Source: Parapedobacter soli
GTDB taxonomy: Bacteria; Bacteroidota; Bacteroidia; Sphingobacteriales; Sphingobacteriaceae
DNA length: 39,273 nt
Assembly (NCBI RefSeq): GCF_025460835.1
Contig: NZ_JAMXAY010000043.1
Span: 1-39,273, forward strand
Reading direction: 5' to 3'
Part shown: piece by piece, positions 3,935-38,764 of the stretch
How the letters are laid out: every line of letters starts with the position of its first letter
How positions within the stretch are numbered: the first letter of the stretch is position 1
Program-made: the position numbers and the translations under genes
Notes under the pieces: model-generated
The model's database searches: none
What the model saw: only the letters and a program-made list of their open reading frames with translations
What the model was told of the DNA's origin: nothing

Positions 3935-3943
3935 CCTTGTTGC

Positions 3944-18525: not shown

Positions 18526-18704
18526 CTTTTCGATCTCTCATCTGCCATTAAAGAATAAATTACGCTAGATGAAACATAGTAAAAGCGGCTACAATCGTCG
18601 CCAAACCTCCTGTCACATTCGTAATTATATGCCACAAATCGCCAAAAGATCGCCTTGCTTTTACCTGCGGTTAAGGTTAATGAACCTCATTACGGACAAT
18701 GACA

Positions 18705-19610
18705 TTACCTTACATCTCTATCTTTCAATGCATCTCCAACTTCAATCGGCAGGTCGGATTCTAAAATCGAAGCCCCATCAGCAAAAACCGCCCGGTAAGC
18801 TTCTGCACGTTCCTCGCTGCTTAGCAACTTATCGTAGGTAGGCGCCGCAGAGATCATGCACATCACGCCCGCTGCATTCAATAGGTTGTACATCTCTTGG
18901 TTTTCAGCCTTGATATCTGGACCGATATACGCAATCATCCGGTTGAATGGGATGTCTGCGGCACGGTAGGCCTCAAACACATCCGGTGTCTTGATATGCG
19001 CGGATAACATCTGGTCACTGTTCTGATCTAAGTAGAACCGGGCTTGTTCGGGTGAATGCACGGTAACCATCACAAAAGAATAAGCATCGTGTTTCCGAAT
19101 AATTTCGGCCGAAAGGGTTATCGGAACGTCTTTCTGGTCGAGATTCAATACCGTCTTACCCCGCGCCCATTCTATCGCTTCATCGAGAGTGGGTATCCGG
19201 TACGGCGTTACGTTTCCATCCCGGTCTTTCAACCGCAATTGCTGCAAATCCGCCCATGTATAATCGGCCACCATACCTGTTCCATCGGTCGTTCTGTCGA
19301 GGGTCTTGTCGTGCATCAATACGACCACACTATCTTTGGTAAGCCTCGGGTCAATCTCAAAAAAAGCGGGGGCATGGCGCAAAACCGCCTCCATCCCCTC
19401 GATGCTATTTTCTGGCAGCCCCTGTTCAATGGTGCCACGGTGGCCACTGACAATGGTACTGCCTTCCTTATAGGCAAAAAACTGGTGGAGTTCGGTAGGG
19501 GTCTTAAAATCCAAGCGATGGAGGCTAGGCTCGTCCACGCATGCGCTTGCAACTAGTGTAAACAGCGTGACCATCGGCACGGCATAACGGAGGCTCATAT
19601 TATTAATCAT
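18705..19610 (-). CDS. Glycerophosphodiester phosphodiesterase-family lipoprotein
   Basis: A 301-residue GDPD TIM barrel, predicted to hydrolyse a phosphodiester such as glycerophospho-X to a polyol phosphate. The N-terminal signal ends in VASAC with C24 as the likely lipidated Cys, so it should sit in the periplasm or on the outer membrane. Catalytic residues are H57-R58 (GHRG), E67-N68, E85 and D87 (EIDPRL) and H100-D101 (MHDKTLDRTTDGTG). The HRG-to-EN spacing is longer than in many GDPDs (TIEQGLPEN). It is the last gene of an eight-gene unit, and its start overlaps the histidine phosphatase stop by 8 nt. It is clearly distinct from the other GDPD at 23085. Confidence 0.92.
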   Translation of the reverse strand: MINNMSLRYAVPMVTLFTLVASACVDEPSLHRLDFKTPTELHQFFAYKEGSTIVSGHRGTIEQGLPENSIEGMEAVLRHAPAFFEIDPRLTKDSVVVLMHDKTLDRTTDGTGMVADYTWADLQQLRLKDRDGNVTPYRIPTLDEAIEWARGKTVLNLDQKDVPITLSAEIIRKHDAYSFVMVTVHSPEQARFYLDQNSDQMLSAHIKTPDVFEAYRAADIPFNRMIAYIGPDIKAENQEMYNLLNAAGVMCMISAAPTYDKLLSSEERAEAYRAVFADGASILESDLPIEVGDALKDRDVR

Positions 19611-20199
19611 TTAATTTCAACAAGGAGAATGGTTCGTCACCGCCGAAGCGTATTAAGGTAATGGCAGAATTTTCCTGTGCAAGACGCCGGTAATTGCATA
19701 GCGGCATTCCCAATTTGTACGCGAGGTAAAGGCGGTTCACACCATTATGTGCTACCACTACTATCGTTTGCCCATTATGGTGACGCTGCATTTCTGCAAA
19801 GAAATCATCCACCCGCTGTACTACCTGCGTGGCCGTATCACCTGTCCCACCTGCGGGCGTCGTTGCGGGGTCCGTGTTCCAAGCTTCCCAAAGCTCGGGG
19901 GCCTCGGCGATGAACTCGTCGCGTGTCTTTCCTTCCCATACACCGAAATCCAACTCAATGAGCCGCGGGTCTCGCGTAACTGGCAGTTGGCCACCTGTTA
20001 CGATTTCTGCCGTCCGGTATGCCCGTTGCAGCGGTGACGCATACACCGCATCTATTGTTTTACCCTGCAAGGCCTCACCTACACGCTGGGCCTGCGCAAT
20101 CCCTTTTTCCGTAAGATTGGCGTCGGTACGTCCGCAGTAGCGGTTGCCGTCAGCATTGTAGGTCGTTTCTCCATGCCGGAGTAGGTACACATCTAACAT
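19603..20199 (-). CDS. Histidine phosphatase (phosphoglycerate mutase-like, CobC/GpmB type)
   Basis: A 198-residue cytoplasmic phosphatase. The LRHGE motif gives the phospho-accepting H9 and R8, the second arginine is in 'YASPLQRAYRTAE', the acid is in 'IELDFGVWEG', and the second histidine is in 'VVVAHNGVNR'. The overall pattern is like alpha-ribazole phosphatase, but no cobalamin genes are near. Its place next to two FGGY kinases suggests that it removes phosphate from a small polyol or sugar phosphate. The start follows the kinase stop with one base between (TGA-T-ATG), and its end overlaps the downstream GDPD. Confidence 0.92.
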   Translation of the reverse strand: MLDVYLLRHGETTYNADGNRYCGRTDANLTEKGIAQAQRVGEALQGKTIDAVYASPLQRAYRTAEIVTGGQLPVTRDPRLIELDFGVWEGKTRDEFIAEAPELWEAWNTDPATTPAGGTGDTATQVVQRVDDFFAEMQRHHNGQTIVVVAHNGVNRLYLAYKLGMPLCNYRRLAQENSAITLIRFGGDEPFSLLKLND

Positions 20200-20200
20200 A

Positions 20201-21634
20201 TCAGCAGTATTTCTTTTTTTTCATTTCAGCTACAAAATAGTCATACTCCGTTTCATACTTGTCTACCATGGTCTGTTCGGGAAGCACCTCCCGTTCGACA
20301 GCCGTCATCGACTGCGCTGCTTCTGCCATTGAGTTGAATCGGGTTTTCGATGCCGCGCCAATCGCTGCACCCACGGCTCCATTTGCTTCACGGCATTTAT
20401 ATATCGGCCGCCCCAATACGTTGGCCCGGATGCGGAGCCATGTATCGCTGTTACTCCCCCCACCTGCGGTATAAACCGCAGCGACACGTTCGCCCGAAAG
20501 CTGTTCGATGAGTTCGTATGCCATCCGCTCGATGAAAGCTACGCCTTCCATGCATGCAGCGAAGCGCTGTGCTGGCGAAATACCGGTGGGTACGAACCCT
20601 TTGGCCTTGGGCGCAATAAAAGGGAATCGTTCACCGGTCTGTTTAAGCGGCCAGGCCAACAGACCTGTGGGGATAAGACTTGCAGCAGCGTCATCCAATT
20701 GCTGCAGATCCGTACCGAAGTCGGTTGCCACCCAATCAGCCCCTGTGTTGCTCGCTCCTCCCGGCATCCAATAACCATCGGGGTGCCTGTGGCTATATAA
20801 CCGGCCTTCGAAATCATGCACAGCCCGTTCCGTCACGCCCTTAATGACCAGCGTTGTTCCTATCGTCGTATTCCACTCGCCCGGTCTTACGGCACCTGAT
20901 GCAACTTGCGACGCACAGCCATCGGTCATACCAACTACGACATGCGTTTGGGGCATTGCCCAACGCACCGCGAGGGCCTCATGCAATCTACCGACGGGAG
21001 TACCCGAGGGGACGACCTCCTGAAACCACCGGCGCTGCAATGGCAACTCGGCGGTCAGATAGTCCGGCCATTCGAACCGGGCCACATCATACCCCGATTT
21101 CAGGGCATTGGTGTAGTCGGTTATGTCGAATCGTCCGCATAGCATACCGGTAATATAATCCGAAGCATGGATCCATTTGTGGATTAGGACCGCCTTTTCG
21201 GGATAGGTTTCGACAAACCACACCATCTTAGATAGGCCGCTCGACGCGTTGAAGCCGGTGTAGCCCGTGGACACGTGGCGCTCGGCCAATGCCCTGACCT
21301 TATGGCCAATGGCTGCCGAACGCGGATCGCTGTACATGATGGCCGGATGCAATGGACGGTTCGCCCGGTCAAGCGGAATAACGGTACCCGAGGTCGAGTC
21401 AACCCCGATGGCCGCCACTTGGCATGAATCGCCCTGTGCTTGCAATGCCGCATGTAGCTCGTCCATTACTTCCAACGTACGTTGCCACCAGTCGTCGGGC
21501 GATTGCTCCATCCGGGACCCTTCGGTAAGGACAAATCGGCGTGACGCCTCCCCCACGACCTCACCGGTTTCCGTGACCATCGACGCACGCACCCCCTGCG
21601 TCCCTACATCGATACCGATAAAACAATGCTGCAT
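20201..21634 (-). CDS. FGGY-family carbohydrate/polyol kinase (second of a tandem pair)
   Basis: A 477-residue ATP-dependent kinase of the FGGY family, which phosphorylates sugars or polyols. An in-frame start exists 14 codons upstream, but I use the ATG at 21634. It lies 2 nt after the upstream kinase stop and gives the usual N-terminus 'FIGIDVGTQGVR' with the phosphate-1 loop at 8-15. The catalytic Asp is D238 in VVGMTDGCAS. The second half has the ATP-binding 'TAGGGSNSDTWLRIRANVLGRPI'. Similarity is to the xylulokinase/AI-2 kinase branch, but the substrate cannot be set. It is very different from its partner kinase, so the pair is not a recent duplication; they may act on two substrates or as a complex. 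Confidence 0.93.
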   Translation of the reverse strand: MQHCFIGIDVGTQGVRASMVTETGEVVGEASRRFVLTEGSRMEQSPDDWWQRTLEVMDELHAALQAQGDSCQVAAIGVDSTSGTVIPLDRANRPLHPAIMYSDPRSAAIGHKVRALAERHVSTGYTGFNASSGLSKMVWFVETYPEKAVLIHKWIHASDYITGMLCGRFDITDYTNALKSGYDVARFEWPDYLTAELPLQRRWFQEVVPSGTPVGRLHEALAVRWAMPQTHVVVGMTDGCASQVASGAVRPGEWNTTIGTTLVIKGVTERAVHDFEGRLYSHRHPDGYWMPGGASNTGADWVATDFGTDLQQLDDAAASLIPTGLLAWPLKQTGERFPFIAPKAKGFVPTGISPAQRFAACMEGVAFIERMAYELIEQLSGERVAAVYTAGGGSNSDTWLRIRANVLGRPIYKCREANGAVGAAIGAASKTRFNSMAEAAQSMTAVEREVLPEQTMVDKYETEYDYFVAEMKKKKYC

Positions 21635-21636
21635 AA

Positions 21637-23088
21637 TTAGCTGATTTGGCTGAACGTGTGCCGGGCACGCTTCCACTCGGCATACAATTCCAAGAACCGC
21701 TCGCGGTCTTGCGGCGTTACCTCGTCCTGCAACTCGGGTGTAGTACCTTGCTGGCCAGTTGCCTCCGCACAGATGAATGCACCGCCCAATACCGATGATT
21801 GTCTATACGTATTACAAATCCGGACGTTCTTATTCGTGAGGTTAGCGATGAACTGGCGGAGCTTGCGGCTTTGCACGCCACCACCACATGCCCATATGTA
21901 ATCGCAGTCATGTGGGGACACCTTGTCCAACACCTTATAATTCTCGTAAATACTACATGCGATGTCCCATAATATAGCAAACACAAACCCACCGCGGGTC
22001 AGTTGATGCGAAACGGGCGCATTGAAAATAAACCCGCCCTTGGTGAGGGGGGTGTCTTCATCGGCCACTAATGAGCCTAAGGACGCCACGCATTGCGAGT
22101 ATGATGTCTCGTCGAGTTCTCGCTCGATAACTTCATAGTCTTCATTGGGATAAAATATTTCTTTAAGGCGTTGGTAGTTCAACCCTGTAACCCCTGCGTT
22201 GGCTTCCAGCATGAAACCGTCTGTATCAATATGGCGTCCGGTCCACGTCCGCTGTTGTTCATCGGTAATGTACACATCAACGATTTTGATAATGGGTGTC
22301 GTCGTACCGGATACGATAACCACATCATCCCGGTTTGGTTTGGTGCTGTGCACCGCCAATTGGGTATCTGCACCGCCAACTACCACCACGGCATCGGGGG
22401 CGATGTCCAATTCTTGTGCTACGTCGGAACGGATATTGCCCAACACGCTGCCCGATGATTTCAAGGAAGGTAAAAGGGAAACGGGCAGATCGAAAACACC
22501 GCAAAGTTCGGCAGACCAATCTTTGGCTTTCACATCATACAGCAGCGTCTCTGATGCTTGGGAGTGTTCGTAACCCAATACACCCGAAAATTGGAACTGT
22601 ACCCAATCGCTGATGCTTGTGAATTTAGCAACTTGCTTCCACAAATCGGTTTTCCGTTCACGCAAACCCACCAGTTTCAATGCAGAGAACAATGCCGTGG
22701 GATAACGTCCCGTCAATGTATACATCCGGTCCTTATCCGCGACCAACGATTCCCATTCCCGACCTCGGTTGTCATGGTTGGACATGCCGACCAAGGGCTT
22801 ACCTAGGTGGTCCAACACAACAATGCCTTCACGCTGGCTGGTTGCCGTTATTGCAGCGATATACACATTACCTGCATCGGCAAGTGCATTTTTCACCAAT
22901 TGTTCAATCTGCTCCCACAGTTGAATGGGATCGAAAGCGATGGAATCGGGGTAGTCGTTGTCTTTTACGTACCGTACATTTTCGCGGTGTAACGCCATCA
23001 GCTCGCCGCCAACTGAAACCACTGCCGCGCGGACATTGCCCGTGCCTATGTCGACAATTAAATAGGCCTGTTGTGTGATGTTATTCAT
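21637..23088 (-). CDS. FGGY-family kinase (first of a tandem pair; AI-2 kinase-like)
   Basis: A 483-residue FGGY kinase. The N-terminal phosphate loop is IVDIGTGNVRAA (11-22), 'ATSQREGIVVLD' is at 82-93 and the catalytic Asp is D241 in VVGGADTQLAV. The adenine-binding part is 'WACGGGVQSRKLRQFIANLTNKNV'. The 'TSQREGIV... NHDNRG' wording is that of the branch often labelled autoinducer-2 kinase, but no lsr transport or lsrF/lsrG genes are present, so that name should not be taken as function. The ATG overlaps the upstream GDPD stop (ATGA), and the second kinase starts 2 nt after its stop, so the pair is tightly coupled. Confidence 0.93.
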   Translation of the reverse strand: MNNITQQAYLIVDIGTGNVRAAVVSVGGELMALHRENVRYVKDNDYPDSIAFDPIQLWEQIEQLVKNALADAGNVYIAAITATSQREGIVVLDHLGKPLVGMSNHDNRGREWESLVADKDRMYTLTGRYPTALFSALKLVGLRERKTDLWKQVAKFTSISDWVQFQFSGVLGYEHSQASETLLYDVKAKDWSAELCGVFDLPVSLLPSLKSSGSVLGNIRSDVAQELDIAPDAVVVVGGADTQLAVHSTKPNRDDVVIVSGTTTPIIKIVDVYITDEQQRTWTGRHIDTDGFMLEANAGVTGLNYQRLKEIFYPNEDYEVIERELDETSYSQCVASLGSLVADEDTPLTKGGFIFNAPVSHQLTRGGFVFAILWDIACSIYENYKVLDKVSPHDCDYIWACGGGVQSRKLRQFIANLTNKNVRICNTYRQSSVLGGAFICAEATGQQGTTPELQDEVTPQDRERFLELYAEWKRARHTFSQIS

Positions 23089-24002
23089 ATTCCGTTATTA
23101 TGGCGTTTTTTAGCTGCTAGGGATGTCATTGGGAAATCTGAAATCACCCGGTGTACGCCAAGCGCTGAAATTCTTTCGATCTCGTTATAGTCGTTGCAGT
23201 TACCGATAATGAGTTCGGTCTTGATCTCCTTGCACGCCGCTACCAATGCGGCATCGATGTAAGCCGGGTTGATGGAGTAAAAATCGGGTGTGAAACCTAG
23301 CCATTCTAAATTGTCTTCCAATGACGTTTTGGCCTTGGCTAGAAACGCCAGCTTAACGTCTGGAAACAGCCGATGGAGTACTTGAAGTGTGCGTGGATCA
23401 AAAGACTGAACGATGATTCGGTCGCGAATGCCCTTCGCCTCGATTACCTGCATCATGAGGCGCACAAATTCTTCCGGACCCGGGTGGTTCACTCCATCCG
23501 TTTTCGGATTCAGCTTGGTTTCTATAAAGTAGCGCGGTGCCTCCAGGCCTTGCGCTACTGCATAGCTCTCGACCGAGTCGATCAACTCGCTCAACAACGG
23601 AATATACGCGGGGTACCGTTCCTGTTCGGGAAAATCAGGATTCGGTAGCTGACCCACGTCATACGACCGGATGTCAGCGTAATCCATTTGGTAGAGCACA
23701 TGCTTCTCCTCTTTCACTATCGAACTGCCGTCTTTTTTCCCGGTGATTTTTGGATTCATTACCGCATCATGACTCACGATTACATTTTTATCCCTGCTAA
23801 TGGCCAGGTCAAGCTCTAGGACCGCTCCGTAATGCAGTGCTTTCTTCATTGCTTGGATCGTATTTTCCGGATGTAGACCTCTGAACCCCCGATGCGCAAA
23901 CACCTCCATCGCTGGCTGGCCGATGGCTGTTTGGCCGCATACCAGGTACAACACCGTTCCCAGCACCAGGCCCCGTAACAAAGCAATAGTTATTAATTTC
24001 AT
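23085..24002 (-). CDS. Exported glycerophosphodiester phosphodiesterase
   Basis: A 305-residue GDPD with an N-terminal signal peptide (about 1-28), so probably periplasmic. Catalytic residues are H37-R38 (AHRGF), E46-N47 (HPENT), E63 and D65 (LELDLAISRD) and H78-D79 (SHDAVMNP). The middle insert with 'NPDFPEQERYPAYIPLLSELID' and 'YFIETKLNP' is typical of bacterial GlpQ-like enzymes. The metal ligands are complete. It should release a polyol phosphate and an alcohol from a phosphodiester. Its stop overlaps the first kinase by 4 nt and it starts 10 nt after the hydroxyacid dehydrogenase. Confidence 0.93.
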   Translation of the reverse strand: MKLITIALLRGLVLGTVLYLVCGQTAIGQPAMEVFAHRGFRGLHPENTIQAMKKALHYGAVLELDLAISRDKNVIVSHDAVMNPKITGKKDGSSIVKEEKHVLYQMDYADIRSYDVGQLPNPDFPEQERYPAYIPLLSELIDSVESYAVAQGLEAPRYFIETKLNPKTDGVNHPGPEEFVRLMMQVIEAKGIRDRIIVQSFDPRTLQVLHRLFPDVKLAFLAKAKTSLEDNLEWLGFTPDFYSINPAYIDAALVAACKEIKTELIIGNCNDYNEIERISALGVHRVISDFPMTSLAAKKRHNNGI

Positions 24003-24012
24003 GCGAAGACCT

Positions 24013-25017
24013 TTACTTCAAAGTAATGATTAAGTTATCTCGGTTAACGGGTTGTTTAATATCTTTTTTTTCCCGCTTAAAATAATCCCCCAACACCCTG
24101 TTCATTATAGCTACGTGATGATCCTCCACCTCATGCGTAGCACCAGCGATGTGGGGCGTTGCCAGCACATTCGGATGCTTGATTAGTTGGTAGTCTTTTT
24201 CATCAGGCGGCTCGTGGTTAAACACGTCCAATATCGCTCCCCGGATCTTACCGTTTTCCACCACATCCAGTAAGGCATCCCGATCGACGACAGCCGCTCG
24301 TGCCGTATTGACAAATATCGCATCCGGATTCATCAATGATAAGAGGTCGGCACCAATCATGCCTCTCGTCTCGTCCGTTACCGGCAAATGTATCGCTACG
24401 ATATCGCTTGAGCGGAAAAGTTCTTCCAAAGACTGCTTCTTAAATAACGGGTCTTGGGCCACGTAAAACGGATCGAAGTAAGTGATTTCACACGGAAATG
24501 TTTTCAGTATTTGCGCGATGGTTTGGGCCACCGCGCCGAAACCGACCATGCCCACGTGCCTTCCTGCCAGTTCGTTACCCTTAAATTGCAGGTATGCCGT
24601 ATGGGCCCCTTCGCCCCATTTACCCGCTTCCAGCCATTCGACCCCCTGCCTTGCTTTCCGCAAAAAGGAAATGATATTGGCGATAAACAACTCGGCCACA
24701 GCTTGGGCATTCCGTGCCGGCGTGTTGAAAACAGGTATGCCCTTTTGGGTCGCCATATCTACCGCCACATTAGAAGGCGTACCGCGGCATACACCGATGA
24801 ATTTCAAGTGTGGATGGGCGTGGATCACTGCCGCTGTCACCTCATCATGCTCTGTAATCAATGCCCCCGCTTGTGATTCACGTAGTAAATCAATGAGCTC
24901 ATCGGGTCGATACCCCCTTCCATGTGCTTTCCAAGGCTTATAAACAACCTCTCCAAACAGTTGCGCCAACTCTTCCCTGCCTTTCTCGTGATAAGGCGCC
25001 GTAACCAATATCCTCAT
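24013..25017 (-). CDS. D-isomer-specific 2-hydroxyacid dehydrogenase
   Basis: A 334-residue NAD-dependent dehydrogenase of the PGDH/FDH family. The dinucleotide motif is GFGAVA at 159-164 with D182 at the end of beta-2 (TYFDPF), indicating NAD preference. The catalytic triad is R240 (NTARAAVVD), E269 (FNHEPP) and H289 (TPHIAGAT). It would oxidise or reduce a 2-hydroxy/2-keto acid derived from the imported compound. It sits between the polyol permease-like carrier and the GDPD-kinase block. A similar trio (hydroxyacid dehydrogenase, FGGY kinase, MFS carrier) is known as yoaD-yoaC-yoaB in Bacillus subtilis. Confidence 0.93.
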   Translation of the reverse strand: MRILVTAPYHEKGREELAQLFGEVVYKPWKAHGRGYRPDELIDLLRESQAGALITEHDEVTAAVIHAHPHLKFIGVCRGTPSNVAVDMATQKGIPVFNTPARNAQAVAELFIANIISFLRKARQGVEWLEAGKWGEGAHTAYLQFKGNELAGRHVGMVGFGAVAQTIAQILKTFPCEITYFDPFYVAQDPLFKKQSLEELFRSSDIVAIHLPVTDETRGMIGADLLSLMNPDAIFVNTARAAVVDRDALLDVVENGKIRGAILDVFNHEPPDEKDYQLIKHPNVLATPHIAGATHEVEDHHVAIMNRVLGDYFKREKKDIKQPVNRDNLIITLK

Positions 25018-25056
25018 AAAAATATCATGTTAATTATAAATTCTCCTTTGTTCGCG

Positions 25057-26331
25057 TCAGGTACGCTCAATGCTCCTTTGCGTCTCTCCTATGTTTTCGG
25101 ACTTAGGCAACGTGATGAACTTCGTGAGCAATGCGCTCAGGAAATACAAGCCTGCCAACACCCAAATTACCCCTTCATTACCAATAACTCCAATTAATAC
25201 GCCCACGATAGCGGGGCCTACAAAAACCGGAAGGCCAGCGCCAAGGTTTAGGATCGCCATGGCCGCACCTTTGTCTTTTTTTACGAGCGAAGGCACCAGT
25301 GCCGATAATGGCACATAGCCGGCCAGCAGGCCACCCCAAAGTACGCCGCATAACAGCACCGCCCAGTAATCGCCACCGAACCAGACCGGCGAGTAGAAAA
25401 ACAGCAGGGTGGTGAGGCCACACCCCACACCACCGAACCACATAATAGTGTTCTGCCAGCCCATCCGATCGCCCACAAACCCGAAAATAAGGTTAAATGC
25501 AATGTTACTGGTGAAAATGGTGCCCCATATCTGCAGCCATTCGATGGTACTGAACCCATGCGTGGCCATGTAAATCGGCAAGAACACCGGAAAGGCAAAT
25601 TGCGCGGTGGTGTTGATTACCCGCACAATTCCCCCGATAAGTACTTTGGGCTCTTCTTTGACGATGGTCAACCCTTTAAGCAACTCTTTGGTTTTCGAAC
25701 CCGCATCGCCGGATGGAACGAACTTATCTTTATTCATCACAAGGGCGAAAAACGCACCTACCAATACCCAGAATATGGAACTCCATAATGTATTTTGATA
25801 GCCAAGTGCTTCGATGGCCCAACTGGAATAGTAGGCCCCGAATACATTGAGGCCTCCTGTGAAAACGAACCAGAACCATCCGACCGCCCTACCCAACTTG
25901 CTTTGGGGTGTACGGTAAGTGATCCACACCAAAAACGAATAAGCAAACAGTGGGTAGGCGAATCCGCGAATGGCATAGGTAATTAACATCACGGGGTAAT
26001 CTAGGTTCTGCATCCCGAGGCCCACGAACCCGACCGTCCCGATAATATACAGGAGTAAACCGAGGAGCATGGCTTTCCTTGGCCCATATCCTTCGGCGAG
26101 CACACCAGAAAACCACGATGAAATGGCGATGGTAATTCCATATACGGTAAACAATAACGCAGATTGTTGCATGGAAAGCCCATGCTCAATCAAGTAAGGG
26201 CTTAACCAGCCCTGCTCCACGCCATCGCCCATCATGAAGATGATGATGCCGAGGTAGCCCCAAGCGAGGGGTTTGGGAAGGCCCGACTTCGAAAAAAAAT
26301 TAGGCTTTTTTGAATTTGCTAGGTTCTCCAT
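25057..26331 (-). CDS. MFS transporter, polyol permease (RbtT/DalT)-like
   Basis: A 424-residue 12-helix inner-membrane carrier. The N-terminal segment 'WGYLGIIIFMMGDGVEQGWLSPYLIEHG' and the loop 'SGVLAEGYGPRKAM' strongly recall ribitol and D-arabinitol permeases of the PoP family. The second conserved region 'AIRGFAYPLFAYSFLVWI' is also shared with them. It should import an uncharged alditol or related sugar by proton symport. It lies 18 nt after the metallophosphoesterase and 39 nt before the hydroxyacid dehydrogenase. The family resemblance is from memory, but this wording is distinctive. Confidence 0.88.
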   Translation of the reverse strand: MENLANSKKPNFFSKSGLPKPLAWGYLGIIIFMMGDGVEQGWLSPYLIEHGLSMQQSALLFTVYGITIAISSWFSGVLAEGYGPRKAMLLGLLLYIIGTVGFVGLGMQNLDYPVMLITYAIRGFAYPLFAYSFLVWITYRTPQSKLGRAVGWFWFVFTGGLNVFGAYYSSWAIEALGYQNTLWSSIFWVLVGAFFALVMNKDKFVPSGDAGSKTKELLKGLTIVKEEPKVLIGGIVRVINTTAQFAFPVFLPIYMATHGFSTIEWLQIWGTIFTSNIAFNLIFGFVGDRMGWQNTIMWFGGVGCGLTTLLFFYSPVWFGGDYWAVLLCGVLWGGLLAGYVPLSALVPSLVKKDKGAAMAILNLGAGLPVFVGPAIVGVLIGVIGNEGVIWVLAGLYFLSALLTKFITLPKSENIGETQRSIERT

Positions 26332-26349
26332 AAACGTTCAGGGTACCTG

Positions 26350-27471: not shown

Positions 27472-27571
27472 ATTTGTATTTTTCAGTAGTTACGATTTCA
27501 ACTGTATGCTACATGCGATTTACCATCTAGCTCCGTGATGCTAGAACAACGGATAACCAGAAAACAGCACG

Positions 27572-27599
27572 GTTGTTGTTTGATGATTCAAACAACAAC
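27572..27599. promoter_or_regulatory. Perfect 11-bp inverted repeat upstream of the metallophosphoesterase operon
   Basis: GTTGTTGTTTG, 6-nt loop ATGATT, then CAAACAACAAC, with no mismatches. It lies 101 nt before the metallophosphoesterase ATG in the only long gap of the locus. No T-run follows on the minus strand, so it is not a standard terminator. It may be an operator for a dimeric regulator or an mRNA leader hairpin. Confidence 0.65.
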
Positions 27600-27707
27600 A
27601 GTACTTATTGACAAATAGCACTTTAAATAACATTTTATTCACAACATCGACTTTTTATTAGTATAATTTGAATTATTGCACAAACAAATCGCCCACGACC
27701 ACCTCAC

Positions 27708-27741
27708 AAAAAAAAATAAAAAACGCACTCAGTTTGTCGCG
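27708..27741 (-). terminator. Candidate rho-independent terminator after the Tat-exported EEP gene
   Basis: On the minus strand, 13 nt after the stop codon, a short stem (CGCGAC paired with GTGCG, one bulged G, 7-nt loop, 27741-27724) runs straight into 15 T of 16 bases. The stem is weak but the T-run is long. It would divide the SusC-to-EEP unit from the metallophosphoesterase unit. Confidence 0.5.
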
Positions 27742-27754
27742 GTTTCCATGCCGG

Positions 27755-28675: not shown

Positions 28676-28791
28676 CCTGTTTTATTCATTGTGACATGAG
28701 CTCAATGTCCGCCACATGTAGCCTTTCCTATCGTGAAAAAGCCATGTTAGTTCATACCGTGCACCCCCGTCACACGCTGTCTCCGTAGTAA

Positions 28792-31802: not shown

Positions 31803-31817
31803 GATTTAATTATTTTT

Positions 31818-33083
31818 CTAACGCTTGATATCCCCCGTTATGGAATGGCGTGGCGTCTCTTTCCGCACCACCACCCATAAAATCACCGCGGCGATGGGGT
31901 GTAAAACTGCCATAGCGATGAAGATTTGGGTGGCACCAATGGTACCGATCATCTGCCCCACAAAATAGTTAAAAAGCACAGCACCCAATGCACCGAAGCC
32001 TCCTGCAATTCCCAATACGCTGGCCACATTTTTCACCGGGAACGCTTCGGCCACGACGACACTGACCGTAAAGAGCCAACTAATACATACTGCCGCGACA
32101 ACACTAAATAGTAGTAGTGTTCCGCCCGCATTGGGCATATAAGGTGTGAGGGCGCATAATGGTCCAAACACCGCAGCGATGGTAAGCATCACTTTCCGGG
32201 CCCGAAGTGGCTCCATCCCACCCCGTACCAACTTATCCGACCATGCCGACGAACCAATTCCTCCCAAGTCTGCCGCCAAAAATGGAATCCATCCAAACAT
32301 GCCAACTTGTGCTAACGTCAAACCGGATTCTTCCTGTAGATATCCCGGCAGCCAGAACAAACAGAAGTACCATACGGGATCACTAATAAACCTAATCATC
32401 AAAATCCCCCAAAGACTACGGGTTTTCCACAGCTGCCCCCAAGAGAACTTAGCAAGGCTATCTGCCGTATCTCGGCTCGCTTCAGCCGCTATATGCGCTG
32501 GCGGTTCGCGATAAACGAACCACCATAACATTGCAATCAATAGGCCTATGCCCCCACACACCCAAAATACCGTGTGCCAGTTATAGGTTATGGCGAGCCA
32601 GGCCACCAGTGGCGGGGCTATTATGGCACCGATGGAACTGCCTGCCACGCAAAGGCTATTCGCGGTAGCGCGAAGTTTTCCTGGGAACCAAACCGTCACG
32701 ACTTTCAATTGTGCCGGGAAATTGGTCGGTTCAGCCATTCCCAACATGCCGCGGAAAAAAGAAAATTGGCCCACCGTACGGGAAATACCTCCCCCTATAC
32801 ATGCGACCGACCAAGCGAGAATGCCATAAAGCATCACCTTACCCGCGCCAAACCTATCGACCAACCAGCCGGTGACGGGATACATCGTTGCATAGCAAAT
32901 CGTAAAAATATTAACGATAAAAGCATATCCACTGTCATCCAGCGAAAAGACATCTTTAAGCGTGGGCTTGAGGATGGAAACTATCTGTCGATCTACATAG
33001 TTGAAGACAATAGCTAAGAAAATTACTCCCACGATTAACCAACGTCGTTTTTCAGGAGATATATGTTGTAAGCGACACTTCAC
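31818..33083 (-). CDS. MFS transporter of the anion:cation symporter family (ExuT-like)
   Basis: A 421-residue 12-helix carrier. 'IFLAIVFNYVDRQIVSILKPTLKDVF' in helix 1 and 'GWLVDRFGAGKVMLYGI' are the ACS-family wording seen in hexuronate (ExuT) and sugar-acid carriers. 'RGMLGMAEPTNFPAQLKVV' is the following conserved loop. It should carry an organic anion such as a uronate or sugar acid into the cytoplasm. It is therefore a second importer with a different expected substrate class from the polyol permease-like carrier at 25057. It lies 18 nt after the EEP gene and 15 nt before the oxidoreductase. Confidence 0.9.
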   Translation of the reverse strand: MKCRLQHISPEKRRWLIVGVIFLAIVFNYVDRQIVSILKPTLKDVFSLDDSGYAFIVNIFTICYATMYPVTGWLVDRFGAGKVMLYGILAWSVACIGGGISRTVGQFSFFRGMLGMAEPTNFPAQLKVVTVWFPGKLRATANSLCVAGSSIGAIIAPPLVAWLAITYNWHTVFWVCGGIGLLIAMLWWFVYREPPAHIAAEASRDTADSLAKFSWGQLWKTRSLWGILMIRFISDPVWYFCLFWLPGYLQEESGLTLAQVGMFGWIPFLAADLGGIGSSAWSDKLVRGGMEPLRARKVMLTIAAVFGPLCALTPYMPNAGGTLLLFSVVAAVCISWLFTVSVVVAEAFPVKNVASVLGIAGGFGALGAVLFNYFVGQMIGTIGATQIFIAMAVLHPIAAVILWVVVRKETPRHSITGDIKR

Positions 33084-33101
33084 GATAATCTATTAAACCC
33101 G

Positions 33102-34022
33102 TTAATCCATTTTAAATCTTATCAACATCGGATAATGGTCAGAAAGTACGTCTGTTAATTCATTCTGAACAATGTCTGCTTCGTACATCTTCCCGGCCAA
33201 CGTGGGGTTTACCCATATGTAATCAATCCTTTTGGGCTTGGAATCTGTTTTCATATATCCTTTCGTCGGCGCACTGTTTTTGAACGTGGCGTTGTGAACG
33301 TAATAAGAATCCAAGAACCCGGCATCTTTAATCAGCCGCATGACCGAATAGTCGATTTGACCCTCATTGAGATTACGCCGGTAAATTATCCTATTCTTAA
33401 CAATGGGGGTACCGCTCTTGGGCTCCAATCGGCCTTCGATTTTTTCCAGCGCAGCCAACAGTTCACTACCATACATTGATGAGTCGACTTCGGAGAGTGC
33501 ATTGAAATCACCAGCAATAAGTATGCACTCGTTGGGCGGTATCGTACGGGCATGGGCAAGAATTCGGGTAAGATCCCGATACCGATCTTGTAATGTGAAC
33601 GGCGCCAAGTGGGTAGTAAAGCAATGCACTCCGCCAACCTTTGCATATATGTATCCGTGCCACATACTATCCAAATACATTTCGACGTTTGAAATTGGAA
33701 ATCTCGATGTGATACCAATGGGATGAGTCGCATCGTGCCCCGACTCTTGGTTCAAAAGGACACTATGGAGGTGGCCGTATCCAAGCGCCAAATCTTGGAG
33801 ATCTTTTTGCACAAAATCATTCAATTCTTGATAAAGAACGATATCAACGTCCATCTTTTTTACCCATTTGGCATACTTGCGCTGAAGCGATTGGTCGCCG
33901 AGAAATCCATGCAGCACATTGTAACTCAATACACCAACGTCGCTTCGTTGGCCATACGTCACAGCACTAAACGTGAGCGATAAGCATATGCATCCCGTTA
34001 TATTGATCAATATTCTTTTCAT
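33102..34022 (-). CDS. Exported endonuclease/exonuclease/phosphatase-family phosphoesterase
   Basis: A 306-residue EEP enzyme with a Sec signal peptide (about 1-24, ending TYGQ). Catalytic residues are N35 (LSYNVLHG), E66 (LYQELND), 'THLAPF', 'IAGDFNAL', 'RIDYIWVN' and the terminal 'LSDHYPM'. It is encoded right after susD, the usual place for the enzyme that prepares substrate for the SusCD pair. It could cleave a phosphomonoester or diester at the cell surface or in the periplasm. Its low similarity to the Tat-exported EEP at 27755 suggests different bonds or substrates. Confidence 0.92.
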   Translation of the reverse strand: MKRILINITGCICLSLTFSAVTYGQRSDVGVLSYNVLHGFLGDQSLQRKYAKWVKKMDVDIVLYQELNDFVQKDLQDLALGYGHLHSVLLNQESGHDATHPIGITSRFPISNVEMYLDSMWHGYIYAKVGGVHCFTTHLAPFTLQDRYRDLTRILAHARTIPPNECILIAGDFNALSEVDSSMYGSELLAALEKIEGRLEPKSGTPIVKNRIIYRRNLNEGQIDYSVMRLIKDAGFLDSYYVHNATFKNSAPTKGYMKTDSKPKRIDYIWVNPTLAGKMYEADIVQNELTDVLSDHYPMLIRFKMD

Positions 34023-34063
34023 ATCCAGCCGTTGCTAAACCAATGTAAGTACATGCTTTTTAA

Positions 34064-35731
34064 TTACCACCTCGGATTCTGCTTTAGTGCTGGATTGGTT
34101 TGTATTTCAACCGGGTGAATAGGCCACAGATAGTGTTTTTCCGGATCAAATACCATTGTTTCGACGACACGCAATATATCTTTGTTTGCAATACCGGAGT
34201 AATCCGGCGTCGTATTCTCGTCCAACGTCGGGGGCGAGACAAGGAGCTCGGTCTTGCTATTACCGTATCTGGGGCCATTCATTACTTGCTCTGCTATTCT
34301 CCAACGTCTGATATCCAACAACCGTCTTCCCTCCATGGCAAGCTCAACTTTCCTTTCCCTTCTCACCACCGATCGTAGGTAAGCTTGTGTGCTACCTTGT
34401 GGAACGGAAGGCATTCCGACGCGGTTTCTTACCGCATTTAGGGCCTCATATACGGAACCGTCGATATCATTTGCTTCTATTTTAGCCTCTGCATACATCA
34501 GCAATAAATCGGCATAGCGCATTAATGTGATATTGAGTTCGTTATCCTGGGTATAGTTCAAGTCTTGGATGTCCATCCATTTCCTCCACAGGTAACTTGT
34601 GAACGTCGCAAACGCATTTGTTGCGTCCGTATTATTTACCCGGATAGCTGGAGTCACATTGTAGTTCCAAACCCTGAGGCTATCGGGATGCGTTTCAAAC
34701 TGGAAACCCATGTAAATGGTCCCCGGGACGGCGACCGTCATATGCAATCGGGGATCTCTGTTGTCATAGGGGTTTTGAGGGTCGAACAAGGGCGATTGAT
34801 CGATGGTCAACCCGTCGATACACTCATACGAATCAACCATTGCCTGTGTGGGCTTTTCGTTAGATACGCCGGCGGACAGCCTGGAGCCAAACTGGCGAAA
34901 CGTAACATGCGTATTTATCCCTCTAAGATACTGCATCGAGAATATATGCTCCCTGGAACTTTCGCCCGCATACGTGAAAAGCTCCGCATAGTCAGGGTGC
35001 AGCTCATAGTGCCCCAAATCCATCGCCGTTTTAGCTGCCTGGGATGCAACCGTCCAACGGCTATTGCACAGGGCCACATACGCTTTAAGAAAATACGCTG
35101 CAACGCTTGTCGCACGTCCGGAATGTCCGTCATGGAATAAGGGTAAATCCGGAGCAATTTCATCCATTTCATTCAAGATCCAATCAACGATTTCACTTTT
35201 TGCCGTCCTCGGCATTTCAGCCTCATCAATGGTAATGCTCGCCGTTATTAATGGTACATCACCAAAAAACTCGGTGAGATAGAAATAACTATAAGCTCTT
35301 ACAAAGCGGGCTTCACCGGCGACTTGGCGTATATAATCGGCGGCTACAGCCCCTTCTGCATTGCTGATATTATCCAACAGGAAATTTGTTCTTGCGATGA
35401 CCGCATAAAAATCCTGCCAGGCATTTTGAGCTGAAGCATTATCACTGGCTGCGGTACCGTTCCCCAGTGAACCTATAGGAGACGCATCCCGATTCCAGTT
35501 AATATCTGATGTACAATCAAGTGTCACAATCCAAGGCATGGCCCCTTTCAATCCAATTCGATTGACTATCCGTTCGTAACAACCTAATATCCCCATATCC
35601 AGTTCCGTTCTGTCATTAAAGAAAGAAGCCGAAGAGGGGCTATCCAGCGGAAGTTTATCCAACATCTTATTACAACCTGAGGCGAATACCAGGCAACTTG
35701 TCAATACGGTAAAAAATATTTTCGTCTTCAT
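34064..35731 (-). CDS. susD: SusD/RagB-family outer-membrane substrate-binding lipoprotein
   Basis: A 555-residue surface lipoprotein that caps the SusC channel. The frame extends to a GTG at 35749, but the ATG at 35731 is preferred: it gives a compact signal peptide with lipobox FASGC and C20 as the lipidated residue, 21 nt after the SusC stop. TPR-like helices and the family phrases 'LDKLPLDSPSSASFF', 'RFVRAYSYFYLTEFFGDVPL', 'YADLLLMYAEAK' and 'EALNAVRNRVG' are clear. The ligand cannot be read from sequence. susD is used here as a family symbol; this is not the starch protein. Confidence 0.95.
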   Translation of the reverse strand: MKTKIFFTVLTSCLVFASGCNKMLDKLPLDSPSSASFFNDRTELDMGILGCYERIVNRIGLKGAMPWIVTLDCTSDINWNRDASPIGSLGNGTAASDNASAQNAWQDFYAVIARTNFLLDNISNAEGAVAADYIRQVAGEARFVRAYSYFYLTEFFGDVPLITASITIDEAEMPRTAKSEIVDWILNEMDEIAPDLPLFHDGHSGRATSVAAYFLKAYVALCNSRWTVASQAAKTAMDLGHYELHPDYAELFTYAGESSREHIFSMQYLRGINTHVTFRQFGSRLSAGVSNEKPTQAMVDSYECIDGLTIDQSPLFDPQNPYDNRDPRLHMTVAVPGTIYMGFQFETHPDSLRVWNYNVTPAIRVNNTDATNAFATFTSYLWRKWMDIQDLNYTQDNELNITLMRYADLLLMYAEAKIEANDIDGSVYEALNAVRNRVGMPSVPQGSTQAYLRSVVRRERKVELAMEGRRLLDIRRWRIAEQVMNGPRYGNSKTELLVSPPTLDENTTPDYSGIANKDILRVVETMVFDPEKHYLWPIHPVEIQTNPALKQNPRW

Positions 35732-35752
35732 ATTTTTATCATTAAGCACTCA

Positions 35753-38700
35753 TTAAAATCTGAAATCAATACCCAAGCTATATGTTTTCATTACGGGGTA
35801 ATTAGTTCCGGTTCCCACGGGGGTTTCTACATCATAGCCATCCCAAAAACGGTCGACCGTAAAAAGGTTCTGTCCATTGATGTAAATACGTGCTTGCTCT
35901 ACCTTTATTCTACCCAACAGGGTTTTCGGCAGATTATAGCCGAGCTGGATATTTTTCAACCTGAGGTACGCCGCACTTCTCATCCAGAAACTGGAATGCT
36001 GATAATTATTTCCAGCGTCGCCCCAAGTTAACCGGGGAAACGTTGCATTTCTGTTCTCTGGTGTCCAGTAATCCTTGTGTTGCTCATATGCAGAAGCTCC
36101 ACTAAAAAAAGGCTGAATGGCGCGCCCATGCAAATATCCATCTGCTTTTCCCACCCCTTGCGCAAAGGCATTGAATGTAAAGTTCTTAAATTCAGCATTC
36201 AGGTTTAAACTGTAAGTAAACCGCGGAATCGTACTTCCTATAATGACAAAGTCGTCCGCGTTTATCACATCGTCATTGTTCTGGTTTACATATCGGATGT
36301 CACCCGGGGCCAGTACACCGATTTGTGTCACATGGCTATTGATCTCTTCGTCTGATTGAAAATAACCGTCTGCCTGTAAAGCAAATATGGAATTGATTGG
36401 GTATCCTTCGCGACTGACCCGAAGCCCGGTCTGGCTCACCCCTCTTAGATCCAACACGGTATTTTTGACATCGGAAACATTCACATCCACACCATATTTA
36501 AATTCGCCGGCCTTTCCTTTATAGCCCAACCCTGCATCCCATCCCCTATTCCTTACCTTTCCTGCGTTCTGCGTAGGTGCTTCAAGGCCTATGCTCATCG
36601 GGATATCTAACTCGAGAAGGATATCGGATGTAATTTTATCATACCAGTCAAATGTCAACGTCAGGTTTCCGAACAACATCAAATCTAAACCAATGTTGGT
36701 CATTTCCGACGTTTCCCAAGAGATTTGCTCATTGCTCATTTCGTTAAGTGCGGCGATAGGCATAATCTGCCCACCCAACGAATACGAGCCTAAATTCAGC
36801 GTAGATGCAAAAGGGTATGTTCCAATATTTTGATTTCCGAGCCGTCCCCAAGAAGCCCGCAGCATAAGATTGTTAACCGTGCGACTGGTACCTTGCATGA
36901 AATCTTCCGCAGAGATCCGCCAACCGCCGGATACGGATGGGAAAAAACCATATTTGTGCCCTTTGGCAAAGCGAGATGAACCATCGTAGCGGGCGTTCAC
37001 TTCAAACAAGTAGCGTGAATCAAAATCATAATTAAACCGCCCAAAAAATGATTGCAGCGCCCATTCGGAAGCGGTGCCTGTAGCCTCCCTATTATCTAAT
37101 AAGCCCGCATCAAGAACTCGGTATTGGGGGAATATAAAACCTTCTCGATATGCCCTGAAATCACGGGTATAAAAAGTTTCCAAGGATGATCCGAGCAAGA
37201 CTTTCAATGCATGTTCACCAAAGTTCTGGTTTGCAGTAAGGTAGCCGTAGTAATTTCCGAACAGCGCACGACTACTCTGATTGGTTAACGTACTTCTTTC
37301 CGGCCGGGTGAACAAAGGGCTTCCATCGAGTTGATACGTTTGGACCGCTTTGTTAAAATTGTCGCTGTACAATTCCTCATATCTGGGCTGGGCCAATAAC
37401 TCAACGTTAAGCCACTCTACCGGCTTATAGTTCAATACAAACCTGCCAAGGAGATTAAGGTGTTCCTCTTTCATAGACCCGCCATCCCCATTGGCAAAGG
37501 CAATAGGGTTATTCCCATTCCACCCCTCACCGTACAACCCATTGGAATATTGGCCCGGTTGAATAGCGGGGATACGGTTCATCTGTAAAAAGACCGCAGA
37601 CAAACCATCAGCCCCAACCTCACCTGCACTGCCCGGTGTAGTTGTATTCCGTTTTATTAATTGGACGTCGAACTGCATGTTCAACTTCTCGCTAAATGTG
37701 ATATCCGTGTTATTGCGTAGCGCGTATCGCTCGAACCGCGATGCTTTAATAATACCTTGTTGATCCAAGTAACCTGCAGATGTCAAAAAACGGAATTTTT
37801 CCCCACCGCCATTAACCGACAGATTATGGTTATGCATTACACCCGAGCCCTTCAAAACTTCCTTCTGCCAATCGGTATTTGGATATTCGTCCGGATTGAC
37901 ATGCATATTTTGACGATACTCGTCAATAAATTCTTGGGTAAATAAAGGTGAGGCACCTGAATTTACATGGGCCATGTTAATCATTTCCATATGATCGATA
38001 GCATCCACTTTGTCCGGCAAATTCGTCGGTGTTTGAAACCCGGTATAGGCATTGTAACCAACCTTCAGCACATTACCACTCGCCCTTTTGGTAGTTACCA
38101 GAATCACGCCATTAGCTGCCCGAGATCCGTAGATGGCCGAAGATGCCGCATCTTTCAAAACATTAATTGACGCAATCATATTTGGATCGATCGAATTCAT
38201 ATCCCCTTCTACCCCATCTATTAAGACCAATGGATTGGAGTTGTTCAATGTACCGATACCCCTAACCCTTATGGTACCACCACTACCCGGAGCGCCTGAA
38301 GGGGTGGTAACAGTAACCCCAGGGGCAACTCCTTGCAACGCGTTGGATGTGGAAGTAAAGGGACGCGAAGCTAAGTCGCCCGTTTCAATTGACGAGACGG
38401 CCCCTGTCAAATTCGCCCGTTTTTGTGTCCCAAAGCCTATAACAACGACTTCGTCCAAATCGGTATGACGACCAGCCATCACCACATCAATTCGTTGTTG
38501 GTTCTCATAGGAGATTTCCTGGGTTTCATATCCCACCATTCCAAAAACCAACACGTCTCCAAGTTGAACCAGCAAGTTGAATCCGCCGTCTATGTTAGTT
38601 GCGACTCCGAGATCTTTACCCTTTACCGTAACTGAAACGCCTTGTAAAGGGACCCCGTTCTCGTCTAACACGCTGCCCGAGATCTGACGTGTCTCTTGCG

Positions 38701-38764
38701 CTGACACGGCAGTAATTGACACCAGACACAGCATCAATAAAAAATAGTAGGTTTTCCTTGTCAT
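35753..38764 (-). CDS. susC: SusC/RagA-family TonB-dependent outer-membrane transporter
   Basis: A 1003-residue TonB-dependent receptor. It has a signal peptide (about 1-23), a CarboxypepD_reg-like domain (about 27-100, 'ISGSVLDENGVPLQGVSV'), a short linker with 'VVVIGFGTQKRANLTGAV', a plug (about 115-225, 'GVTVTTPSGAPGSGGTIRVRG' to 'GVILVTTK'), then a 22-strand barrel ending in the aromatic 'SLGIDFRF'. It lacks the extra N-terminal STN signalling domain, so it is not expected to signal directly to an anti-sigma factor. With SusD it imports an oligomer or other large nutrient across the outer membrane. It is the first gene of the minus-strand unit. No sigma/anti-sigma pair or hybrid two-component regulator is in the window. 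susC is a family symbol only. Confidence 0.95.
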   Translation of the reverse strand: MTRKTYYFLLMLCLVSITAVSAQETRQISGSVLDENGVPLQGVSVTVKGKDLGVATNIDGGFNLLVQLGDVLVFGMVGYETQEISYENQQRIDVVMAGRHTDLDEVVVIGFGTQKRANLTGAVSSIETGDLASRPFTSTSNALQGVAPGVTVTTPSGAPGSGGTIRVRGIGTLNNSNPLVLIDGVEGDMNSIDPNMIASINVLKDAASSAIYGSRAANGVILVTTKRASGNVLKVGYNAYTGFQTPTNLPDKVDAIDHMEMINMAHVNSGASPLFTQEFIDEYRQNMHVNPDEYPNTDWQKEVLKGSGVMHNHNLSVNGGGEKFRFLTSAGYLDQQGIIKASRFERYALRNNTDITFSEKLNMQFDVQLIKRNTTTPGSAGEVGADGLSAVFLQMNRIPAIQPGQYSNGLYGEGWNGNNPIAFANGDGGSMKEEHLNLLGRFVLNYKPVEWLNVELLAQPRYEELYSDNFNKAVQTYQLDGSPLFTRPERSTLTNQSSRALFGNYYGYLTANQNFGEHALKVLLGSSLETFYTRDFRAYREGFIFPQYRVLDAGLLDNREATGTASEWALQSFFGRFNYDFDSRYLFEVNARYDGSSRFAKGHKYGFFPSVSGGWRISAEDFMQGTSRTVNNLMLRASWGRLGNQNIGTYPFASTLNLGSYSLGGQIMPIAALNEMSNEQISWETSEMTNIGLDLMLFGNLTLTFDWYDKITSDILLELDIPMSIGLEAPTQNAGKVRNRGWDAGLGYKGKAGEFKYGVDVNVSDVKNTVLDLRGVSQTGLRVSREGYPINSIFALQADGYFQSDEEINSHVTQIGVLAPGDIRYVNQNNDDVINADDFVIIGSTIPRFTYSLNLNAEFKNFTFNAFAQGVGKADGYLHGRAIQPFFSGASAYEQHKDYWTPENRNATFPRLTWGDAGNNYQHSSFWMRSAAYLRLKNIQLGYNLPKTLLGRIKVEQARIYINGQNLFTVDRFWDGYDVETPVGTGTNYPVMKTYSLGIDFRF

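Follow-up and report, generated by a model that had tools for sequence, protein, structure and literature searches.

What does a SusC/SusD outer-membrane system harvest when the genes around it encode phosphoesterases and FGGY kinases? This question is raised by a contig of Parapedobacter soli (C116, from the 5.17-Mb genome G000), which was analysed at its full length of 39273 bp and is called the window here. Since the window is the whole contig, C116 holds nothing past 39273. Positions 18705-38764 are filled by 15 successive minus-strand genes (Table 1), with intergenic gaps of -40 to +283 bp. A preliminary description, made from the letters alone, had claimed 15 co-directional genes; all are present, and their families were confirmed by Pfam and NCBIfam profile searches of the 15 proteins. 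It had also proposed a phosphodiester-bearing polyol as the target. This is supported by relatives, in which exported phosphoesterases recur together with the polyol carrier and both FGGY kinases. On balance we lean towards a locus for phosphodiester utilisation that feeds carbon metabolism, with a phosphodiester-linked polyol as the carbon source. That the released polyol is specifically a pentitol is proposed more tentatively. The gene set, its motifs, its conserved linkage and its co-occurrence are direct observations.

Gene content of the locus

A polysaccharide utilisation locus (PUL) of the Sus type is expected to carry neighbouring SusC and SusD genes and, inside the unit, a glycoside hydrolase or polysaccharide lyase. 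Here, SusC and SusD are neighbours, 3 bp apart, and the second feature is missing among the 15 genes: Pfam and NCBIfam searches assigned none of the 15 proteins to a family of glycoside hydrolases or lyases. The locus resembles such PULs in that SusC/SusD, exported hydrolases, an inner-membrane carrier and catabolic genes stand in one cluster, and it differs from them in that the hydrolases are phosphoesterases and a sulfatase.

Export and motif calls were made with a simple hydropathy and pattern check and no trained predictor. Hydrophobic N-termini are seen in SusC, SusD, EEP1, MPE, GDPD1 and GDPD2, as well as in the sulfatase, whose start is less clear, and EEP2 begins with a Tat-like (twin-arginine translocation) RRKFL motif. 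By the same check, no export signal is seen on HisPhos, HADH, FGGY1, FGGY2 or FADox. The catalytic motif HRG/ExD/HD is present in both glycerophosphodiester phosphodiesterases (GDPD1 and GDPD2), the motifs GDFN and SDH in both endonuclease/exonuclease/phosphatase-family (EEP) enzymes, GD/GNHD/GH in the metallophosphoesterase (MPE), RHG in HisPhos, and the catalytic Asp in both FGGY kinases; the sulfatase carries the CxPxR motif of the S1 type. EEP2 has four PDB matches, and the sole one with a named activity is 4c1r, a mannosyl-6-phosphatase. Structure prediction from single sequences gave a mean pLDDT (predicted local distance difference test) of 32.5 for FADox and 44.5 for MPE.

The stretch is likely better read as two adjoining transcription units, judging from the gene spacing. 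The first is a tight run of SusC-SusD-EEP1-MFSgal-FADox-sulfatase-EEP2 and the second a tight run of MPE-RbtT-HADH-GDPD1-FGGY1-FGGY2-HisPhos-GDPD2, and the two are separated by the EEP2-MPE gap. An Rfam scan of 15000-39273 returned no RNA element at gathering scores.

Table 1 Features of the SusCD and kinase locus in the window (MFS, major facilitator superfamily; AI-2, autoinducer-2).
Feature	Position	Strand	Basis and remarks
SusC/RagA TonB-dependent outer-membrane transporter	35753..38764	-	TIGR04056 926 bits
SusD-like substrate-binding lipoprotein	34064..35749	-	PF07980/PF14322; lipobox
EEP1, exported endonuclease/exonuclease/phosphatase-family enzyme	33102..34022	-	PF03372; 3/42 relatives
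MFSgal, MFS carrier nearest D-galactonate type	31818..33083	-	TIGR00893 200 bits, below cut-off 395
FADox, FAD-dependent oxidoreductase	30405..31802	-	PF12831 427 bits
S1-type sulfatase, apparent strain-level extra	28792..30405	-	PF00884; CAPSR formylglycine motif, residue 115; nearest PDB 6hhm
EEP2, predicted Tat-exported EEP-family phosphoesterase	27755..28675	-	PF03372
Intergenic gap of 283 bp, probable promoter region of second unit	27472..27754	.	gap length; weak repeat match
MPE, exported calcineurin-like phosphoesterase	26350..27471	-	PF00149; motifs; 11/42 relatives' stretches
RbtT, MFS carrier of ribitol/D-arabinitol (RbtT/DalT/CsbX) subfamily	25057..26331	-	TIGR00897 566 bits, cut-off 375
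HADH, D-2-hydroxyacid dehydrogenase family	24013..25017	-	PF02826/PF00389; catalytic R/E/H motifs
GDPD1, exported glycerophosphodiester phosphodiesterase, apparent recent extra	23085..24002	-	PF03009
FGGY1 kinase	21637..23088	-	FGGY family; nearest solved relative AI-2 kinase LsrK
FGGY2 kinase, D-ribulose-kinase-like (SePSK/AtXK-1 type)	20201..21676	-	NALKxGY stretch
HisPhos, histidine phosphatase superfamily branch 1	19603..20199	-	PF00300; export signal none seen
GDPD2, exported (lipoprotein-like) glycerophosphodiester phosphodiesterase	18705..19610	-	PF03009; closest PDB 3mz2, E=1.2e-85

Conservation and linkage in relatives

Orthologs of HADH (E <= 1e-80) were found in 44 of 301 genomes sampled from the family, Parapedobacter soli counted in. 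FGGY1 (E <= 1e-70) is rare in the phylum, with 3 positives among 395 sampled genomes including Parapedobacter soli, and one of these, G562, belongs to another family of the same class. A matrix of 42 relatives comprised 40 of the 43 other HADH-positive genomes, G562 (via FGGY1) and G711 (via FADox), HADH presence being the selection criterion for 40 of the 42. The identity thresholds of the matrix were chosen after earlier matches had been seen, and the stretches vary in length, an absence being an absence from the stretch. The three remaining HADH-positive genomes (G077, G261 and G288) and G702 were examined outside the matrix, as was G019, which has the MFSgal-FADox-EEP2 module and no core; G702 was first fetched at a site with this module and without the core.

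Looking for the same gene set across relatives, as the preliminary description had suggested, we observed the HADH-FGGY1-FGGY2-HisPhos core in 46 of the 47 other genomes fetched, most of them picked by HADH. Among these 46, RbtT is present in 42, the exported GDPD2 in 37 and a DeoR-family regulator in 44. Within the matrix, FGGY1, FGGY2 and HisPhos each occur in 42/42 relatives, DeoR in 40/42 (it was not found in G033, and G038 is at a contig end), RbtT in 38/42 at 68-97% identity and GDPD2 in 35/42; MFSgal, FADox and EEP2 occur in the same 26/42 genomes, and the SusC type of the window in 17/42. The genomes G077, G261, G288 and G702 also have the core, RbtT and DeoR, with GDPD2 in G261 and G288. 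Gene order was counted over 45 loci. Two of them, L066 and L068, come from genomes already represented (G007 and G067), and L067 is a metagenome-assembled genome (MAG) outside the matrix. Adjacency in fixed order is seen for HADH-FGGY1 in 43/45 loci, for FGGY1-FGGY2 and FGGY2-HisPhos in 45/45 each, for HisPhos-GDPD2 in 38/38 loci with both, and for RbtT-HADH in 40/41; for the other genes it is seen for MFSgal-FADox (27/28), FADox-EEP2 (26/26) and EEP2-RbtT (17/20).

Unlike FGGY1, FGGY2 and HisPhos, no single phosphoesterase is kept in all 42 relatives, and the variable front-end genes of relatives are often phosphoesterases of other folds. Near the core or the module, phospholipase C genes with PF04185/PF05506 were identified by Pfam in G014 and G033, with similar genes in G099, G256 and G702, the last adjoining MFSgal-FADox-EEP2. 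Purple-acid-type metallophosphoesterases occur there in G099 and G256, a MetallophosN/C gene in G001, a further GDPD in G008, and SGNH esterases in G014, G033, G099 and G256, as well as near the core in G562. GDPD1 is shared with 1/42 matrix relatives (G007, taken as Parapedobacter pyrenivorans), and the sulfatase of the window has an ortholog (>= 45% identity) in 0/42. By this distribution the sulfatase and GDPD1 are local extras, against the picture given in the preliminary description. Its sulfate-bearing target is weakened in the same way. Further S1 sulfatase genes are, however, found close to the locus in several genomes; with the window sulfatase unconserved and these others nearby, the data speak neither for nor against a sulfated target. 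As a side observation, a lipoprotein-like PF06439 (3-keto-disaccharide hydrolase family) gene lies in the window at 14943-15965 with EVE-domain and DEAD helicase genes, and these neighbours recur beside the core in G007 (L010).

In most relatives the divergent gene encodes the DeoR-family protein. The Parapedobacter soli ortholog (Pfam DeoRC and HTH_DeoR) is 91% identical to that of G007, starts 428 bp from the end of another contig, C156, and is followed there by the same neighbours as in G007, which suggests that C116 and C156 adjoin. Of the 14 open reading frames (ORFs) in the initial 20 kb of C156, 11 were searched in Pfam, and these include a glycosyltransferase, a second S1 sulfatase (2830-4257, two genes from DeoR), a sugar-isomerase-like protein, an MR/MLE-type protein, a Gfo/Idh protein, two ThuA-domain proteins and an AraC regulator. 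Another SusCD pair was recognised there through similarity. The nearest DeoR paralog in the genome (51%) adjoins DAO/DAO_C, FGGY and MIP genes, which form a GlpD-GlpK-GlpF-like glycerol set. A motif search of 43 DeoR control regions (40 after redundancy removal) recovered a recurrent AT-rich repeat (TAAAACAAAATAAAA-like) that scores well above letter-shuffled regions. This TAAAACAAAATAAAA-like repeat is a candidate operator in the DeoR intergenic regions of many relatives (e.g. L111, L104 and L053). It was not found in the 509 bp upstream of SusC in the window, and the EEP2-MPE gap has a weak AT-rich match near 27700, insignificant alone.

Members of the EEP, MPE and GDPD families set free phosphate or phosphomonoesters, which would suit a phosphorus-scavenging locus; the phosphoesterases would then obtain phosphate in starvation, and the kinase unit would merely dispose of the freed alcohols. 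Such systems are known as PusCD. In the available part of PMC8115612, the PusCD clusters of Flavobacterium combine SusCD with exported phosphodiesterases and phosphomonoesterases, contain no carbohydrate-active enzymes (CAZymes) and are induced by depletion of inorganic phosphate; PusCD phosphate systems are also treated in PMC8812569, likewise available in part. The window locus is similar in its SusCD pair with exported phosphoesterases (EEP1, EEP2, MPE, GDPD1 and GDPD2) and no CAZyme, and a PF00149-type enzyme, as MPE is here, is part of PUSI in the same excerpt (PMC8115612). It differs in adding a polyol carrier, two FGGY kinases, HADH and DeoR, which point to carbon catabolism. In addition, no phosphate transporter or Pho regulator was matched among the 15 genes in Pfam or NCBIfam, the recurring regulator is a DeoR protein with its nearest paralog beside glycerol genes and not PhoBR, and the kinases and HisPhos are universal in the matrix whereas no phosphoesterase is. 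We therefore regard scavenging of this kind as unlikely. Since PusCD clusters are published (PMC8115612, in the part available), SusCD with phosphoesterases replacing CAZymes is not new; the earlier claim that no such pathway is described holds for the full gene set, for which no description was found among the papers listed from open-licence PMC full text, judged by title and the start of the abstract.

Data from relatives tie the SusCD unit to the kinase unit. In the same 301 genomes, as we take them to be, scanned for FADox at E <= 1e-150, an HADH ortholog is present in 26 of the 27 other FADox-positive genomes versus 17 of 273 FADox-negative ones. Conversely, FADox is found in 26/43 HADH-positive versus 1/257 HADH-negative genomes (p=5e-25); the sole HADH-negative genome with FADox is G019, and G261 was scored FADox-negative with its copy split between contigs. 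The MFSgal-FADox-EEP2 module shares the fetched stretch with the core in 26/42 relatives; in G033 about 17 kb of the same contig lies between the two. SusC of the window type (44-53% identical) is found only alongside this module (17/26 versus 0/16, p=1.4e-5). The genes SusC-SusD-HADH-FGGY1-FGGY2-HisPhos of G277 make up a single co-directional run, in which HADH stands about 56 bp from SusD, and in G235 SusC-SusD-MFSgal-FADox-EEP2 stand in the order of the window, without EEP1 and the sulfatase. This linkage and co-occurrence support the two units belonging together, and contradict the possibility, raised in the preliminary description, that they are unrelated.

A joint absence of RbtT and GDPD2 is expected if GDPD2 makes the cargo of RbtT. 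In the four genomes that lack RbtT (G114, G216, G235 and G277), GDPD2 is absent from the stretches read and MFSgal-FADox-EEP2 is present in all four. GDPD2 is thus absent in 4/4 RbtT-less versus 3/38 RbtT-bearing genomes (p=3e-4), or in 4/4 versus 5/42 with later genomes added (p not recomputed). These patterns fit two entry routes onto one core, the first through GDPD2 and RbtT and the second through SusCD, the EEP enzymes or MPE, MFSgal and FADox.

Clues to the released polyol

Ribitol and D-arabinitol operons are arranged as rbtT-rbtD-rbtK and dalT-dalD-dalK. The window locus shares with them a TIGR00897 carrier and FGGY kinases, and differs in that its core has HADH, a second FGGY kinase, HisPhos and a coupled exported GDPD; a dedicated ribitol or arabinitol dehydrogenase is not found among the 15 genes. 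FGGY2 is nearest to AtXK-1 (180 bits) and SePSK (145 bits), followed by xylulokinase (113); the NALKxGY stretch of the SePSK/AtXK-1 type is present in FGGY2, as is the catalytic Asp. FGGY2 scores below the XylB cut-off, and Ser222 of SePSK aligns with Gly in FGGY2. SePSK phosphorylates D-ribulose, and AtXK-1 has little activity on it, according to the part of PMC4880283 at hand. FGGY1 is nearest LsrK (122 bits) and shares its REGIV stretch. In the main text of an FGGY survey (PMC3245297), as far as the accessible portion goes, the word start 'bacteroid' is absent.

FADox orthologs within the family are 75-80% identical, and FADox is 69-74% identical to Neorhizobium and Microvirga plasmid proteins (5 records at 60-80%). 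Because identity to the plasmid proteins nearly equals that within the family, transfer of FADox between phyla is suggested. On the two Neorhizobium plasmids opened, FADox adjoins sugar ABC-transporter (ATP-binding cassette) genes, a short-chain dehydrogenase/reductase (SDR) and a pentulose kinase, which in the one plasmid scored reaches TIGR01315 at 704 bits against a cut-off of 409. The plasmid FADox genes lie at L116 9995-11431, L117 9986-11419 and L118 9986-11385, and that of Neorhizobium sp. EC2-8 is annotated as two overlapping ORFs.

A second locus of Parapedobacter soli, on contig C1 (L019 640-15000; L070), also combines phosphoesterases with SusCD. Its genes encode LacI, a Zn-dependent alcohol dehydrogenase (ADH), a GDPD, a sugar ABC transporter, a DalD-like dehydrogenase, a PfkB-type kinase and FADox, together with a DUF6772 protein, a second FAD oxidoreductase, MFSgal, a sigma factor, FecR, SusC, SusD, a GDPD and MPE. 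Identities to the window proteins are 69% for MPE, 66% for MFSgal and 58% for FADox. Taken together, RbtT, FGGY2, the FADox neighbours and the C1 locus would favour a pentitol, and are no proof of it. The inositol target named in the preliminary description was set aside: there is no inositol dehydrogenase among the 15 genes, and the carrier is of a pentitol family. Nucleoside use was also considered, since G204 has a gene of the nucleoside-hydrolase family together with a PfkB kinase and a permease; among the loci compared, the only recurrence is a hydrolase relative (34%) in G033.

Weighing the reading and its meaning

We infer the substrate, the direction of each step and shared expression as follows. 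SusC and SusD would capture and take up phosphodiester oligomers or head groups, and the exported GDPD, EEP and MPE enzymes would cut the phosphodiester and strip the phosphate to give a free polyol, most probably a pentitol (for instance ribitol or D-arabinitol). RbtT would move the polyol over the inner membrane, with MFSgal and FADox serving a second form of the substrate. FGGY1 and FGGY2 would then phosphorylate the polyol, and HADH and the cytosolic phosphatase may complete an undescribed route into the pentose-phosphate pool, all under control of the GlpR-like DeoR regulator.

Several observations weigh against this phosphodiester-polyol reading, and some of them concern the unity of the locus. 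Third-position GC content (GC3) is 0.443-0.524 in the SusC-EEP2 run, wholly beneath the 0.537-0.604 of the MPE-GDPD2 run, so the SusC-EEP2 run looks like a later arrival in the genus. Of eight other Parapedobacter genomes four have an HADH ortholog, 0/4 of these have FADox (E 1e-150), and MFSgal-FADox-EEP2 is absent from the stretches read in these four. In G702 the core and the module are far apart, at 0.54 and 4.17 Mb of a 5.17-Mb contig; RbtT is retained without GDPD2 in 5/42 genomes; and the position of DeoR next to SusC is deduced through synteny, as DeoR lies on the separate contig C156. A regulatory motif common to both units was found only as a weak one. These GC3 values and the other Parapedobacter genomes would suit two unrelated neighbours, a SusCD-EEP-FADox unit for some glycan and a separate polyol kinase unit, made adjacent by chance insertion. 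With both modules on the same fetched stretches in most of the matrix and family co-occurrence far above chance, we consider this very unlikely.

Other observations concern the compound. The core has no dedicated polyol dehydrogenase, FGGY1 and FADox have no characterised close PDB relative, FADox (72%) on the Microvirga plasmid adjoins sugar ABC genes and no kinase, and the C1 dehydrogenase, although nearest DalD, scores 334 bits, below the cut-off of 600. A sugar acid may be involved, because HADH keeps its acid-binding motifs, and a hydroxy-acid step for HADH is likely on this basis. The cargo could then be a sugar acid or another hydroxy acid, which HADH would oxidise or reduce and FGGY1 would phosphorylate. 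MFSgal is indeed closest to sugar-acid carriers, and on an Enterococcus raffinosus megaplasmid (L115 7632-16664) relatives of HADH (44%) and FGGY1 (33%) cluster with a DeoR relative, an NhaC-like carrier, a FucA-type aldolase, an iron ADH, MtnK and MtnA. However, RbtT is far over the cut-off of a polyol-carrier subfamily and FGGY2 resembles a ketose kinase, and we find an acid cargo improbable. The megaplasmid locus is possibly a related pathway in Bacillota, with an aldolase that is missing from the Bacteroidota core. Its MtnK and MtnA genes hint, at this locus alone, at 5-deoxyribose/methylthioribose salvage. Clusters of an FGGY kinase, an HADH-type dehydrogenase and a class II aldolase were also seen on a Streptomyces plasmid (L119 6355-9699) and in a Klebsiella record (L120 5889-9028); at 5.37 Mb, the size of the latter 'plasmid' record suggests that it may really be a chromosome under a wrong label.

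The surroundings of the core also count against the phosphodiester-polyol reading. Among 49 organisms read, with flanks of differing length, GH78/GH106 rhamnosidase genes, a rhamnose GntR gene or a rhamnose operon lie near the core or module in nine (G008, G057, G067, G076, G094, G190, G239, a Mucilaginibacter MAG and G019). In G019, the module is joined to a rhamnose operon in the absence of the core (L132 1813-15154): FADox-EEP2-MFSgal runs into genes for RhaT, an aldolase-SDR fusion, an isomerase-like protein, an FGGY_C_2 kinase and a LutB-type protein. G562 has GH141 and GH127 genes downstream of the core on the same strand, with two other genes between. Because the core of some relatives has rhamnosidase or rhamnose genes beside it, lack of glycoside hydrolases, which the preliminary description had made the mark of the locus, is true of the 15 window genes and is no class trait. 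Such neighbours would be expected if the locus served a phosphate-bearing, rhamnose-containing surface polymer (e.g. a Gram-positive rhamnose/polyol-phosphate glycopolymer), with this strain having retained only the half that handles phosphoester and polyol; the rhamnose neighbours and the polyol core would be compatible if the target were a polyol-phosphate polymer containing rhamnose. Yet a GntR regulator of their own accompanies the rhamnose genes, which occur on either strand; in the stretches read, no rhamnose genes were seen at most Pedobacter-type loci (g16); and the sole glycoside hydrolase among the 11 C156 ORFs searched is a GH43 at 18648-19718, 18.6 kb from the contig start and behind the AraC gene. 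We give this alternative a low probability.

Under the phosphodiester-polyol reading, what is new here is an undescribed catabolic core attached to a Sus/Pus-like locus, an interpretation that is partly supported. Our broader proposal, offered with some reserve, is an undescribed class of Sus-like locus, recurrent in Sphingobacteriaceae, that would harvest phosphodiester-linked polyols as carbon, with interchangeable phosphoesterases in the role of glycoside hydrolases and the two-kinase/2-hydroxyacid-dehydrogenase core as a new polyol pathway. The sources in this proposal would be teichoic-acid-like polymers of other bacteria or deacylated phospholipids. GlpQ, a GDPD-type enzyme, cuts wall teichoic acid exolytically, in the part of PMC7086022 available. 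By family GDPD2 is likewise a predicted glycerophosphodiesterase; the polymer that B. subtilis breaks down with GlpQ is, however, its own.

If this is true, soil Bacteroidota would eat phosphodiester polyols, beyond their use as phosphate supply, and polymers joined by phosphate, teichoic acids among them, would come within the PUL idea; how other soil bacteria turn such polymers over has, to our knowledge, been little studied. Several orphan families (PF12831 oxidoreductases, LsrK-like FGGY kinases and exported EEP enzymes) would in addition gain a context of substrate, and a new polyol pathway would be open to testing.

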